From an uncultured Bacilli bacterium (GTDB lineage: Bacteria > Bacillota_I > Bacilli_A > RF39 > UBA660), in assembly GCA_947625535.1 (NCBI GenBank), contig CANQOR010000012.1, forward strand, positions 1 through 43,533: DNA of 43,533 nucleotides, read 5' to 3'. Positions 1,047 to 33,301 of the stretch are shown here, piece after piece (within the stretch, counting starts at the first letter, position 1; each line of letters begins with the position of its first letter). Position numbers and translations under genes: made by a program. The notes under the pieces are model-generated. The model did no database searches and was not told the origin of the DNA. It worked only from the letters and a program-made list of their open reading frames with translations.

Positions 1047-1928
1047 ATGAAAAATAAAGAAAATCAAGCTAAAAAGAAAAAGGTAACTTCCAACAAAAAG
1101 GTAGAAAAAGAAGAAGAAAAAAATAACAAAATAAAAGTTGGTATATTTCATTTTAGTAAAGCTGACATAGTTTCATTAGTTATTTTAGCATTACTTATTT
1201 TAATATATATTATATCTCCAAGACGTTATGCTGTTACTACCGGATTATATAATCAAAGTACTGAAGAAAATCAAATGAATGTTGTAAATGCTTTAGGTGA
1301 AACTAATACTGAAGAAAGATTTGAATTATATTTCCAGTGGTATAATGTCATACACGAATTAGGTCATGGACTTCTTATGTATAACAAAGGTGTAGATATA
1401 CCTATAGCTGATGAAGAACAATTAGTTAATGATTTTGCCGTTGCTTATTGGAAATATTATGGCGAAGAAGATAAAGTAAATGAATTACAAGACATTGCTA
1501 ATTATGCTGTAGAACATATTGGTACTAATTATGCCGATGGTGTAGATTATTTACAATTAGCTAAAGAAAATTCAACTCGTAGAAGTTTTTATTCATCTTT
1601 CTTTAATTTTAATGATTATGGTTGGTTTCAATTTAGTTGTGTAAAGCATTCCTTTGAAACTAATAAAGATTTAGAAACAGTATTAAAAGAAATGGGAATC
1701 AAAGACTTTAAATTAAATGAACCTAAAAAACTAGTATATAAAGAGATAAATGAAGATGTAAGTACAGAAATAATTAATGAAGCCGTTAAAAACTTTAATG
1801 AATGGGGTTTAAAATTTCCTAAAGTAAGTCATTATTATAATAAAGATCCAAATAATAATTATTCAAGACCTGTAGTTAAATATTTATGGGTAGTTGAAAT
1901 ACCAGATTTTGTTCGCATGTTTTCTTAA
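1047..1928 (+). CDS. Membrane-anchored HExxH (M78-like) putative metalloprotease
   Basis: This 293-aa protein is not assigned to a named family with certainty. Residues 1-32 are a Lys/Glu-rich cytoplasmic tail and 38-58 a single membrane helix; the rest should lie outside the cell. HELGH at 103-107 is a zinc-metalloprotease active-site motif. About 16 residues later comes 'EEQLVNDFA' (123-131), the spacing and pattern of the third ligand helix in ImmA/IrrE-type (M78) gluzincins ('E..AN.FA'). I infer an extracytoplasmic protease related to that fold. The start at 1047 has a weak GGTGAT site. It stands alone between two terminators. Confidence 0.65.
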   Translation: MKNKENQAKKKKVTSNKKVEKEEEKNNKIKVGIFHFSKADIVSLVILALLILIYIISPRRYAVTTGLYNQSTEENQMNVVNALGETNTEERFELYFQWYNVIHELGHGLLMYNKGVDIPIADEEQLVNDFAVAYWKYYGEEDKVNELQDIANYAVEHIGTNYADGVDYLQLAKENSTRRSFYSSFFNFNDYGWFQFSCVKHSFETNKDLETVLKEMGIKDFKLNEPKKLVYKEINEDVSTEIINEAVKNFNEWGLKFPKVSHYYNKDPNNNYSRPVVKYLWVVEIPDFVRMFS

Positions 1929-1937
1929 AAAATAACA

Positions 1938-1966
1938 TTGTATTATAGATAAAAATATAGTATATT
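1938..1966 (+). promoter_or_regulatory. Sigma-A promoter of the pseudoknot RNA
   Basis: TTGTAT (1938-1943) and TATATT (1961-1966) are spaced by exactly 17 bp. The predicted start of transcription, near 1972, is the first base of the closing helix of the RNA gene downstream. Confidence 0.7.
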
Positions 1967-1970
1967 TAAG

Positions 1971-2120
1971 ATGCATTTAAGAACGAAACTCGCTTGCGGG
2001 TGGTGCGAGTAATAAGTAATCCCGTTTGAGCATGTTTTTCGCCACTAGGTAGTGCGACTAATAAATAATCCTGGTCTAAAATGCAAGAATCTCCATTTCT
2101 ATGATGGAGTTTTCTTTTTT
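1971..2120 (+). ncRNA. Unrecognised small RNA with two tandem H-type pseudoknots
   Basis: A gene-free 240-bp interval has its own promoter, a structured core and a terminator. An 11-bp helix with one mismatch (1972-1982 with 2075-2085) closes the core. Unit 1: ACTCGC (1988-1993) pairs with GCGAGT (2005-2010), and the loop GCGGG (1996-2000) pairs with CCCGT (2021-2025). Unit 2: TCGC (2039-2042) pairs with GCGA (2054-2057), and the loop CTAGG (2045-2049) pairs with CCTGG (2070-2074). Both units keep GGTxGTGCGA and the linker TAATAArTAATCC, while the loop-helix bases change in a compensating way. No known riboswitch or sRNA consensus that I can recall fits. The RNA ends at its own terminator, so an independent regulatory RNA is more likely than a leader of the NERD gene. 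Confidence 0.75.
2091..2120 (+). terminator. Intrinsic terminator of the small RNA
   Basis: CTCCAT (2091-2096) pairs with ATGGAG (2104-2109) and is followed by TTTTCTTTTTT. It lies directly 3' of the pseudoknot core and is the likely 3' end of that transcript. Confidence 0.85.
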
Positions 2121-2172
2121 CTTATGATATATTAATACTAAGATAAATAATTTATAATTGTTGGTGATATAA

Positions 2173-3186
2173 ATGAATTTAATAAATAATATAATCGATT
2201 CTTTAAGATTCAAAGATACTATATTTTTAAAAGAAACCAGTGATTTACAAGCTAAATATGAAGCTTTAAAAAAGTTGAATGAAGAATTTCCTAATAATGA
2301 GGAATTATTAAGTGAATTATATATTGTTAAAAAGGGTTTAGATGGTGAAAATGAAATAGCTTATCAGTTAAAAAAATCTCATATTGGAATGTATGTTTTA
2401 AGAGATGTTAAATATCAATATGGTGATTTGAGTGCTCAAATTGATTACATAATTATAACCTCACTATATTTTTACTATATTGAATGTAAAAATCTTGTAG
2501 GAAATATCACAGTAACTGAAAAAGGCGATTTTATTAGAGAATTCACTGTTAATGGTAAAAAAATAAAAAAGGGGATGTATTCTCCATTAAGACAAGCTGA
2601 AGCCCAAAGGGAAGTTATTAGAAAAATATGGGAAAGTAATATTTCAACTTTAACAAGAGCTTTAGCATCAAGTAAATTTGAACATTATAGAAGAGTTTTA
2701 GTAGTTGCAGCAAACCATGATACAATACTTAATACTAACAAAGCTCCAAAGGAAATGAAGTATAAGATACTAAGATCAGATGCTCTAGTAAGACAGATTG
2801 AATATGATTTAAATCATAGAGATAATAGTGAATATATGGAAAATCAAAAAGAAATGTTAGCAACTGCCCAATCATATCTTAATTTATCAGTTAAATATAA
2901 TATAAATTATTATGATTATTATAAAAATAAATATTATAATAATATAAATAATATAAAAGACGATACATTGAAAATAAAATTAATAAATTTTAGAAAGAAA
3001 AGATCAAATGAGATGGGCTTACCAGCATATTATGTCTTTACAAATGATGAATTAGATAAAATAATTGCTTTAAAACCAAAAACATTTGAAGAATTAAAAA
3101 ATTCTAAAATATTACCAGCTATTAAAGTTAAAACACATGGTGAAGCTATAATAGAAGAGATAAATAAATATAGAGGAAACCTTTAA
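2173..3186 (+). CDS. NERD-domain (nuclease-related) protein
   Basis: The 337-aa protein has a NERD domain at about residues 52-185: 'KKGLDGENEIAYQL', then 'QIDYIII' and 'YYIECKNL'. Asp91 together with Glu104-x-Lys106 makes the D...ExK core seen in restriction-endonuclease-like folds, so nuclease activity is plausible although most NERD proteins are uncharacterised. The N-terminal 45 residues and the C-terminal 150 residues are helical with no recognised domain. The start has a weak TTGGTGAT site. The stop at 3184 is followed in the +1 frame by about 28 coding-like codons, so the C-terminus may be shortened by a frameshift. Confidence 0.75.
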   Translation: MNLINNIIDSLRFKDTIFLKETSDLQAKYEALKKLNEEFPNNEELLSELYIVKKGLDGENEIAYQLKKSHIGMYVLRDVKYQYGDLSAQIDYIIITSLYFYYIECKNLVGNITVTEKGDFIREFTVNGKKIKKGMYSPLRQAEAQREVIRKIWESNISTLTRALASSKFEHYRRVLVVAANHDTILNTNKAPKEMKYKILRSDALVRQIEYDLNHRDNSEYMENQKEMLATAQSYLNLSVKYNINYYDYYKNKYYNNINNIKDDTLKIKLINFRKKRSNEMGLPAYYVFTNDELDKIIALKPKTFEELKNSKILPAIKVKTHGEAIIEEINKYRGNL

Positions 3187-30095: not shown

Positions 30096-30283
30096 TCATC
30101 ATATATATCTAAATAATCATTAATTGTTTTCTTAATTTCTTCTTTTTCTTCATCAGTTTGCGCATTAGATAATAAAAAATCAAAATAGGTAGTTTTTTCA
30201 CAAAAAGTAATTTCTGGATTATTTAAAGCACTTTCTTTCATAACTTCAGAAACATTTTTTAGTTCTTCATTATTTTCATTCAT
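30077..30283 (-). CDS. Small acidic hypothetical protein
   Basis: The 68-aa acidic, helical protein has no known motif. ATG 30283 is chosen because GGAAGTGAT lies 6 bp before it, inside the end of tcdA; the two genes overlap by 8 bp and are probably coupled. It ends in the shared terminator. Confidence 0.55.
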   Translation of the reverse strand: MNENNEELKNVSEVMKESALNNPEITFCEKTTYFDFLLSNAQTDEEKEEIKKTINDYLDIYDEKNENK

Positions 30284-30971
30284 TATTATCACTTCCTTTA
30301 TGTATTATATCACTAAATACATAATTTGCTATCAAAAAACCAGCAACATTAGGAACTAAACTTATTGAACCAGGTGTTCTATTATGTATCTTAATTGGTA
30401 TTTCTTTAGAACATAATACAGGTATTTTCTTATTAATCTTATTATCTCTTAATAATTTACGTAATATTTTAGCTACTGGATCATAATTAGTCTTCCATAT
30501 ATTAGTTATTTCTAATTTACTAGCATCTAATCTATTACCAGTACCCATTGAACTAATAATATTAATATTATATTTTAAAGAATACTTAATTAATAATAAC
30601 TTAGTAGTTATGGTATCACAACAATCTATAATATAATCAAATGAAGATATAGGTATTTCCCCTATATTAGCTTCATTTAAGAACATTTCATAAGTTTTAA
30701 TAGAAATACTAGGATTTATACTTTCTCCTCTTAATTTAGCTTCTAATACCTTAGAATGACCTATATTATTTATATTAGATAATAACTGTCTATTTAAATT
30801 ACTAATATCAAAAACATCATTATCTATAATTGAAATATTTTGAATACCCAATCTAACTAAAGCTTCAAAACAAGCTCCACCTACTCCACCAATACCAACT
30901 ATTAAAATATTACTATTTTTAAGATTATTAATTTGCTCATTACTTAATATTAATTCCATTCTTTGAAACAA
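30276..30971 (-). CDS. tcdA: tRNA threonylcarbamoyladenosine dehydratase TcdA
   Basis: The 231-aa E1-like enzyme (ThiF/MoeB superfamily) makes cyclic t6A in tRNA with ATP. The ATP-binding GIGGVGG (about 26-32) sits in 'ILIVGIGGVGGACFEALVRLG', split by description; 'DNDVFDISNLNRQ' is the diagnostic next motif, and 'DCCDTITTK' and 'SSMGTGNRLD' follow. There are no paired CxxC zinc motifs, as usual for TcdA. The start is TTG 30971 with AGGTGA 5 bp upstream; a GTG at 30980 overlaps that site. It lies directly downstream of the 6S RNA gene. Confidence 0.9.
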   Translation of the reverse strand: MFQRMELILSNEQINNLKNSNILIVGIGGVGGACFEALVRLGIQNISIIDNDVFDISNLNRQLLSNINNIGHSKVLEAKLRGESINPSISIKTYEMFLNEANIGEIPISSFDYIIDCCDTITTKLLLIKYSLKYNINIISSMGTGNRLDASKLEITNIWKTNYDPVAKILRKLLRDNKINKKIPVLCSKEIPIKIHNRTPGSISLVPNVAGFLIANYVFSDIIHKGSDNNE

Positions 30972-30989
30972 TTTAATCACCTAACCACA

Positions 30990-31168
30990 TAAAAACTCAA
31001 GGGATACTTACCTGTGATAAAAAACCTGCACTACACAGGTGGGTGTCACATAGATGATTTTAGGATCCCTACACCTTAAAGGCAAGGTCTTCAACACCAC
31101 CACCTAATTAGACTCCCTTATAATCACTTACTCGGTTTTTATTAAAAAGTAAGTATTTATCCTTGAGT
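30990..31168 (-). ncRNA. ssrS: 6S RNA
   Basis: A 179-nt rod-like RNA. The ends form a long helix: ACTCAAGG (31168-31161) with CCTTGAGT (near 31002-30995), then ATACTTAC with GTAAGTAT. The inner part has a hairpin ACCTT-GCCTTT-AAGGT and a GGTGG/CCACC helix around a large open centre, as in 6S RNA, which mimics an open promoter and binds sigma-A RNA polymerase. The position between tcdA and the aspS/hisS region agrees with that of bsrA in Bacillus. I identified it by shape and context, not by alignment. Confidence 0.7.
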
Positions 31169-31174
31169 AATTAT

Positions 31175-31260: not shown

Positions 31261-33240
31261 TTAACCAACTGGTGGAACAAAACTAGGAGCAATAACTCCA
31301 TTAGCACTCATTCCATTATTACTAACTGGTGCTTGTACTAAAGGTGTTTGTTGTTGTACTTGCATTGGTGATGGAGTCATTAAATCAGGTTTACCATTAT
31401 TTGGTACTTGCGCTTGCGCTTGAACTGGAGCTTGTGCTTGTACTGGACTACCAGCACCTCCCCCATTACCAGGATTATTAAATGCTCCTTGAATCTTCCA
31501 ACAATTATTTACATCACAAGAGTTAGAATTTGGTGCCGGATTAGGCATTTCCATCTTAATTACCATTGGTAATTTAAATGCTCCGCCAAATCCTACACAG
31601 TTACCTGGTTGTAAAATCTTTTGCTTTTCAATAACATCAGCAGAAATATTAGGAAGCATAGTTCTAATATATTCAATATCTTTAGGGTGTGTCATTTTAA
31701 ATATTAAGAAATTACTACATTGAGCAATAACAGTTTCAGATATTTCAACTGGTCTTTGAGAAATGATATTTAATAAAACACCATACTTACGACCTTCCTT
31801 AGCAATACGATCAAAAATATTATAACCAATTAAGAAAACATCGGCATCCTTTTGAACATATCTATGTGCTTCTTCCAAAAATAAATGGAAAGGAATTGTA
31901 GCTCTTTGCTTTCTAGTCTTACAAAAATCAAAGAATATTCTTGCAACAATTTTAACAATAATCTTGGCTTGAGTATCATCAATATCCTCTAAGTTCATAT
32001 TAATAACTTGGGCTTTCTTATTACCAACCGCAACTAAAGAAGCTATATAAGTTTCAGTCGAAATATAATTATCACATTTATATATATTAGCAATCTTACT
32101 ATTTATAATAGAATTTAATCTAACTTTTAATAACATAGAATCATCATATAATTGTTCATTATTTTGAAAACCTTCACTAATTAATGTAAATTCCAATGCT
32201 GCTGCAAAATCTCTCATTGAATAGAAAGAATTTACTGGTTCTTCAGTCATTTCCATTTCTTCATTAATATGATCTAAAATATAATCAGTAATTAAAACAG
32301 ATTCACCAAAATTACCATTACTATCTATTTCAAAACATTCAGATAATGTTCTAGTATAACCTAAACCTTGAATAACACTATCAAAATCAAAATCTTTAGT
32401 ATGACATACTTCAAGTACTTTAAATATATCATTCTTCTTATTAGCTGTAATTTGATTACTATATAAAATAGCAATAAGTGCTTTAGCTATTAAGTGATTT
32501 TTATATTTTTCAGCAACTTCATCATCTTTACTAAATATTCTTGTAAGTTTTAAAGCTCTTTCCAAAATAGGTATTTGACTATGTTTATCAGCTTGTAACA
32601 TAATAGTTAAATCATCTAAGTTAAGTAAATGAAATGGTATCTTTAATTCATAATCAGTAGGTTCTTGAATATTAGTTGTAATAAATTTATAACTATAATT
32701 TGGATTTAATTTATTTAAATCTTTAAAAGCTGTTTTATATTCACCATAAGCATCAAATATAAAGATATTAGCATTATAAGAAACTAATTTTGGATTAGAA
32801 AATATATTTTGAACTATTCTTGCTACCCCACAAGATTTACCAGAACCAGTATTTCCAAATACTGCCATATGGTTAGCAAATAAATTATTAATATCAGCAC
32901 ATACTTCATAATTAGTATAAATAGAACTTTGACCTAATTTAAAAGTTGTTTCATCATAAACACCAACAATAGCTTTTAATTCTTCATCATTAATTGTTCT
33001 AATATGACTAGATAAAACTGGTTTACGAATAACACCTGAAACATATTTATTATCGTGAAATTCACCTAAGAATCTAATTTTAATTACTTCATCAGTTACT
33101 TCTTCTACTTCCCCTAAAATAGCTTGATCTGGAGCTTCAAAGACAACGTGAACATTCATTAAATCTCCCATTTCTTCAGCTTTAGCAATTGTTTCTACAT
33201 GAGCTACGTTACCAGAAATAAACTTTATTTTTCCAAACAT
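31261..33240 (-). CDS. HerA/DUF87-type ATPase
   Basis: The 659-aa protein has an N-terminal HAS-barrel (about 1-95), then a HerA-FtsK superfamily ATPase: Walker A GNTGSGKS (about 129-136), Walker B 'FHLFLEEAHRYV' with the catalytic Glu, and 'ISQRPVEISETVIAQCSNFLI' with the arginine/sensor region. The C-terminal 90 residues are Gln/Pro/Ala-rich, low complexity. HerA proteins are hexameric DNA translocases; archaeal ones pair with the NurA nuclease, and bacterial ones occur in housekeeping and defence settings. No NurA is visible here. ATG 33240 has GAGGTG upstream. A terminator separates it from the gene before it. Confidence 0.85.
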   Translation of the reverse strand: MFGKIKFISGNVAHVETIAKAEEMGDLMNVHVVFEAPDQAILGEVEEVTDEVIKIRFLGEFHDNKYVSGVIRKPVLSSHIRTINDEELKAIVGVYDETTFKLGQSSIYTNYEVCADINNLFANHMAVFGNTGSGKSCGVARIVQNIFSNPKLVSYNANIFIFDAYGEYKTAFKDLNKLNPNYSYKFITTNIQEPTDYELKIPFHLLNLDDLTIMLQADKHSQIPILERALKLTRIFSKDDEVAEKYKNHLIAKALIAILYSNQITANKKNDIFKVLEVCHTKDFDFDSVIQGLGYTRTLSECFEIDSNGNFGESVLITDYILDHINEEMEMTEEPVNSFYSMRDFAAALEFTLISEGFQNNEQLYDDSMLLKVRLNSIINSKIANIYKCDNYISTETYIASLVAVGNKKAQVINMNLEDIDDTQAKIIVKIVARIFFDFCKTRKQRATIPFHLFLEEAHRYVQKDADVFLIGYNIFDRIAKEGRKYGVLLNIISQRPVEISETVIAQCSNFLIFKMTHPKDIEYIRTMLPNISADVIEKQKILQPGNCVGFGGAFKLPMVIKMEMPNPAPNSNSCDVNNCWKIQGAFNNPGNGGGAGSPVQAQAPVQAQAQVPNNGKPDLMTPSPMQVQQQTPLVQAPVSNNGMSANGVIAPSFVPPVG

Positions 33241-33301
33241 ACCCAACACCTCTTTATTATATACATTAATATCTTAACATAAAAATATAAATAAATAAAT
33301 A

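Follow-up and report, generated by a model that had tools for sequence, protein, structure and literature searches.

A CptI-type RNA without its toxin, probably in decay, in an uncultured Bacilli bacterium

The window analyzed here, a 43,533-nt stretch of DNA from an uncultured Bacilli bacterium, holds an RNA in the gap between an HExxH protein gene and a NERD gene. A preliminary description took this RNA for a free-standing pair of pseudoknots with no gene attached and of no known class. What kind of RNA is it, and why does it stand alone?

Structure and covariation of the RNA

Both tandem H-type pseudoknots of that description were recovered, together with their stems and terminator (Table 1). 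Positions 1983–2080 consist of two tandem units of ~49 nt (repeats of about 45–50 nt), and the inner pairs of both stems are unbroken in all 16 of 16 cells. Plain folding of the single strand, which is blind to pseudoknots, gave z −2.2. An intrinsic terminator lies at 2091–2109, where 0.1 would be expected by chance, and the RNA is an independent transcription unit, as had been proposed. In relatives, the same hairpin stands between antitoxin and toxin. The sigma-A promoter scored 9/12 in a consensus scan; its −10 element is good, but its −35 element is degraded, TTGTAT in place of the TTGACA or TTGACT that, with a 17-nt spacer and TATATT, precedes the RNA in most toxin-linked relatives. The 11-bp closing helix is present, as 10 pairs and one A·A mismatch, yet it is confined to the window copy: the leader–trailer helix has z −2.3 there versus a mean z of 0.01 in 44 toxin-linked loci, which rules it out as a feature of the family.

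Table 1. Positions of the RNA, its elements and adjoining features in the window
Feature	Position	Strand	Details
Promoter	1938–1966	+	−35 TTGTAT (1938–1943, degraded), 17-nt spacer, −10 TATATT (1961–1966)
Closing helix, 5′ arm	1972–1982	+	TGCATTTAAGA; 10 pairs and one mismatch
Closing helix, 3′ arm	2075–2085	+	Copy-specific
CptI-type unit 1	1983–2031	+	R1 match, 65.4 bits, E 1.2e-14
Unit 1 stems	S1 1989–1993/2005–2009; S2 1996–2000/2021–2025	+	CTCGC/GCGAG; GCGGG/CCCGT
Unit 1 A-rich loop L2	2010–2020	+	TAATAAGTAAT
CptI-type unit 2	2032–2080	+	R1 match, 68.8 bits, E 1.3e-15
Unit 2 stems	S1 2039–2042/2054–2057; S2 2045–2049/2070–2074	+	TCGC/GCGA; CTAGG/CCTGG
Unit 2 loop L2	2059–2069	+	TAATAAATAAT
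Intrinsic terminator	2091–2119	+	CTCCATttctATGATGGAG and T tract
CptN start place in relatives	2120–2172	+	No toxin remnant found in window
NERD+HRDC protein gene	2173–3186	+	NERD 5.8e-15, HRDC 1.3e-9; occupies the toxin's place

An Rfam scan placed no family above its gathering threshold for the window RNA and returned only chance-level matches at E ≤ 10. Elsewhere in the window, 6S RNA (RF00013) was found at 30991–31171 (−), between genes at 30276–30980 (−) and 31261–33249 (−), with 47.3 bits against a gathering score of 46.4.

Homologues were sought by DNA search in 15 genomes of the genus. Three relatives emerged, two with one unit each (L010 and L011) and one with a degenerate unit (L012). 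The S2 loop helix is CCAGG/CCTGG in L010 and CCGGG/CCCGG in L011, the earliest sign of true covariation. R1, a covariance model of a single unit built from units of this genus, was then applied to 291 genomes from the same family, of which 114 matched at E ≤ 1. Among the matches listed (down to E about 4e-7) there are 150 units in 91 clusters from 70 of the 291 genomes, mostly unit pairs 49–51 nt apart. Covariation was scored on an explicit pseudoknot structure in two alignments, a mainly toxin-less one with 87 distinct units and a toxin-linked one with 85. Cells changed on both sides numbered 118 and 143, versus about 38 and 40 in shuffles, and for S1 and S2 none of 500 shuffles reached the observed count. 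Paired cells made up 91–94% of the family alignments versus 16–48% with partners slid. The compensating changes first noticed between the two units are thus real, and both stems covary far above chance across the family.

Relationship to CptI antitoxins

Most RNAs of the family are followed by a protein of about 160 aa. This protein is a CptIN-family toxin by NCBIfam NF047359 (1.2e-47, cut-off passed), and its sole PDB match is 4RMO (4rmo_A), CptN of E. rectale (5.8e-20). Among the matches listed, a full CptN lies just downstream on the same strand in 45 of 91 RNA clusters, a broken one in 10 and none in 36. In relatives, the toxin HMM match mostly begins 70–150 nt past the last unit.

The units themselves resemble the E. 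rectale antitoxin, CptI_Er. Its repeat, taken from a primer, is AAGTTTACCACTGACCGATATGTGGTATATAAATGGTCGGGTTGA; it has an S1 of ACCAC/GTGGT, a loop helix S2 and an A-rich L2 (ATATAAATG), and it is cut after the final adenine before AAGTTT (PMC4627078). In the window family, the unit pattern is ATGTTT-S1-S2-TGGY-S1′-TAATAAATRAT-S2′, with the next ATGTTT following an adenine. The L2 core AATAAAT aligns with AUAAAUG of CptI_Er, including A29 and the kink U30, and the L2 loops of both window units keep the kink U and the preceding A. Mutation of A29 or U30 abolished antitoxicity in CptI_Er (PMC4627078). Given this match, the linker TAATAArTAAT that had been noted in both units is the A-minor-twist loop L2 of CptI, in line with the suggestion of a conserved, possibly protein-binding site in each unit. 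The other shared segment, GGTxGTGCGA, is by its place in the pattern the S2/S1′ junction.

Judged by homology, fold and loop sequence, the window RNA belongs to the CptI lineage. The statement that no known class fits does not hold, since the RNA fits the CptI antitoxins of type III toxin–antitoxin systems, which Rfam failed to detect. Its lack of any Rfam match and its tandem pseudoknots with conserved loops speak for a new tandem ligand-binding RNA or a trans-acting small RNA, as first proposed. We give that proposal next to no chance: the RNA's homologues precede CptN; CptI_Er has the same kind of pseudoknot, A-rich loop and boundary between repeats; and the closing helix on which the idea of a ligand-binding device was based is not conserved.

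By analogy with E. rectale CptIN (PMC4627078), an intact system would work as follows. The promoter would direct a short transcript with two pseudoknots in tandem; the terminator would stop most transcripts, with read-through yielding the CptN RNase; CptN would cleave the RNA between units; and the freed pseudoknots would keep CptN inactive.

Probable loss of the toxin

That the RNA has no gene attached is true of the window copy, but not of its kind, as the 45 listed relatives with a full CptN downstream show. Neither the window nor its genome yielded a detectable CptN; that genome is 88% complete, so a copy may lie elsewhere. Intact CptN is absent from all 15 genomes of the genus. In one of them, the sister genome G010, the RNA is accompanied by a frameshifted CptN; in another, G012, a broken RNA immediately precedes the amylase gene that the window also has.

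The window RNA also bears damage, its degraded −35 element included. The 5′ flank of unit 1 is ACGAAA versus the conserved ATGTTT, which unit 2 retains, and the inter-unit cleavage position (2031) is C where the family has adenine, although toxin-linked loci also show slight variation there. The 3′ tail of unit 2 is TCTAAA instead of TYGANA. Across the family, broken inner pair cells number 1/790 in toxin-linked units versus 17/439 in toxin-less units, the latter pooled from orphans, the window and genus relatives (Fisher p 2.5e-7, with cells and genomes not independent). These data point to a decaying, toxin-less CptI antitoxin, probably a remnant left after CptN loss, and such loss would be why no gene is attached. 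The simplest history is that CptN was lost first and the RNA then decayed, an order that rests on few genomes, and we infer that the window copy is functional no longer. Yet every inner pair, the −10 element and the terminator are kept, so the RNA may be under some selection or the loss may be recent. In the absence of a toxin, the element is not counted as a working CptIN system.

The toxin's place is instead taken by the NERD gene, which begins about 90 nt past the last unit, the CptN position in relatives. NERD proteins have relatives among nucleases, and NERD also lies downstream of the RNA in G098 and G010; all this would suit a novel pairing of type III-like design, with the NERD+HRDC protein under the control of the RNA. 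Such a pair is nonetheless very improbable. Of 26 NERD loci scanned, 24 lack the RNA within the fetched flank, the exceptions being the window and G098, and on this ground NERD was set aside as a new partner. In G098, RNA and NERD are separated by another gene and by a toxin scar; in G010, where the RNA lies 2.2 kb upstream of NERD, the genes in between are a broken CptN and one of 494 aa. The order in G010 is RNA, broken CptN, 494-aa gene, NERD, small ORF, kinase, Smr; in the window it is HExxH protein, RNA, NERD, amylase, two genes, kinase, Smr. As judged from gene order, G010, the window and G012 show a common site, and this shared chromosomal site, with its kinase–Smr neighborhood, explains the adjacency better than partnership does. 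NERD is a neighbor, not a demonstrated partner. A toxin scar adjoins NERD in G178 as well (L252).

Further features recur around these loci. Throughout the family, a PfkB-like kinase with an Smr-like protein after it (domain names by likeness) is found near many CptI loci, for example L071, L115, L182, L183, L218, L223 and L227, which suggests a conserved chromosomal site for CptIN. The HExxH membrane protein of the window (1047–1928, +) has no Pfam or NCBIfam match; its homologues follow a toxin-less CptI in L097/L022 and, in L060, are close to the amylase gene.

Of the 36 toxin-less clusters among the matches listed, five are less than 500 nt away from a contig end and the other 31 are clear cases; toxin scars (E<1e-4) remain in six of the 31 (L076, L085, L093, L094, L102 and L109). 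The converse case is rare. Seven full CptN genes lacked an RNA in the strict search, but a relaxed search found one for six of them (weakly for L165, E 0.037), and the seventh lies at a contig end. RNAs without toxin are thus common while toxins nearly always have their RNA, which argues that antitoxins outlive toxins and not the reverse.

Could solitary CptI antitoxins be retained for use, neutralizing CptN on incoming mobile elements (anti-addiction) or buffering a related CptIN? Toxin-less loci are common even when limited to those whose downstream sequence reaches 500 nt or more, and in many of them both units are still well paired; the window copy has all its inner pairs, and almost every toxin seemingly without RNA gained one on relaxed search. 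Retention remains unlikely to us, however. The orphan structure decays, the scars in several orphans imply recent loss, and the processing site and 5′ sequences of the window copy are damaged. Moreover, CptI antitoxins gave no cross-protection among three systems whose toxins are 35–44% identical (PMC4627078). The broader notion that many gut Bacilli keep solitary CptI RNAs as stand-alone immunity against mobile-element CptN, an RNA anti-addiction module, is similarly doubtful. Three exact patterns searched in IMG/VR viral contigs matched nothing, so there is no sign of phage-borne copies with these motifs.

The other genes downstream of orphans give no hint of a new partner in common: they are mixed and include a histidine kinase, a choloylglycine-hydrolase-like protein, Abi_2, a kinase, an HExxH protein and others. 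Abi_2-family proteins recur near CptI loci, at L116 (5764–6855, −; PF07751, 1.2e-23) and, judged by sequence likeness, near L024, L033, L039 and L102. Several CptI arrays surround one or two CptN genes in L103 (G226 C20), where RNA and toxin are followed by four further units, and in L081 (G067 C2), which has duplicated systems with one toxin broken.

Toxin loss with decay of the RNA therefore remains our preferred account of the window copy. CptIN systems are widespread in this family of uncultivated gut Bacilli; among named records, the RNA occurs in metagenome assemblies designated as uncultured Bacilli, Tenericutes or the like, several of which bear an animal gut label. A toxin-less CptI is a known kind of RNA, new to this lineage, and the main interest lies in how common such copies are among gut Bacilli. 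A literature search of incomplete coverage did not turn up any mention of type III antitoxins that stand alone. Decay here is one-sided, in that the RNA often persists without toxin while nearly every full toxin checked keeps its RNA, as addiction predicts, and through this pattern the question of solitary RNA antitoxins is now testable. The work also yields, for a CptI family missed by Rfam, a large alignment with covariation.

Comparison with known systems

Pseudoknots of the SAM-II type are single ligand-binding leaders of metabolic genes. The SAM-II riboswitch and similar RNAs share with the window RNA an H-type pseudoknot whose A-rich loop occupies the minor groove (A-minor twist, PMC4627078). 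Unlike them, the window RNA is tandem and free-standing, and is linked to an RNase toxin in relatives. Features of a tandem riboswitch were not found in those relatives, which lack the closing helix and have cptN or unrelated genes downstream, with no metabolic association.

The ToxIN/AbiQ type III systems (PF13958) are closer. Like CptIN, they combine a tandem pseudoknot RNA antitoxin, a terminator and an RNase toxin, but their repeats are ~34–36 nt and their toxin belongs to another family. True ToxIN loci with short tandem repeats of their own lie near CptI RNAs in L083 (ToxN at 335–841, −) and L035 (2381–2887, +), so ToxIN and CptI are distinct kinds. In L083, the ToxIN locus directly follows a toxin-less CptI pair, as though one type III system had replaced another.

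The nearest relative is CptIN of Eubacterium rectale (CptI_Er/CptN_Er, PDB 4RMO, PMC4627078). Its repeats are 45 nt versus 49–51 nt in the window family, S1 and S2 differ in sequence, and in the family S2 is followed by a conserved UGGU/UGGC segment. The window copy further differs in having no toxin gene and in having lost both the 5′ flank of unit 1 and the cleavage adenine between the units. Both RNAs nevertheless have two tandem H-type pseudoknot repeats, a terminator, a short L1 and a long A-rich L2 with AUAAAU, A29 and the kink U30. In both, the repeat boundary follows an adenine, before AAGUUU in CptI_Er and AUGUUU in the window family, and a homologous toxin accompanies the window RNA's relatives.
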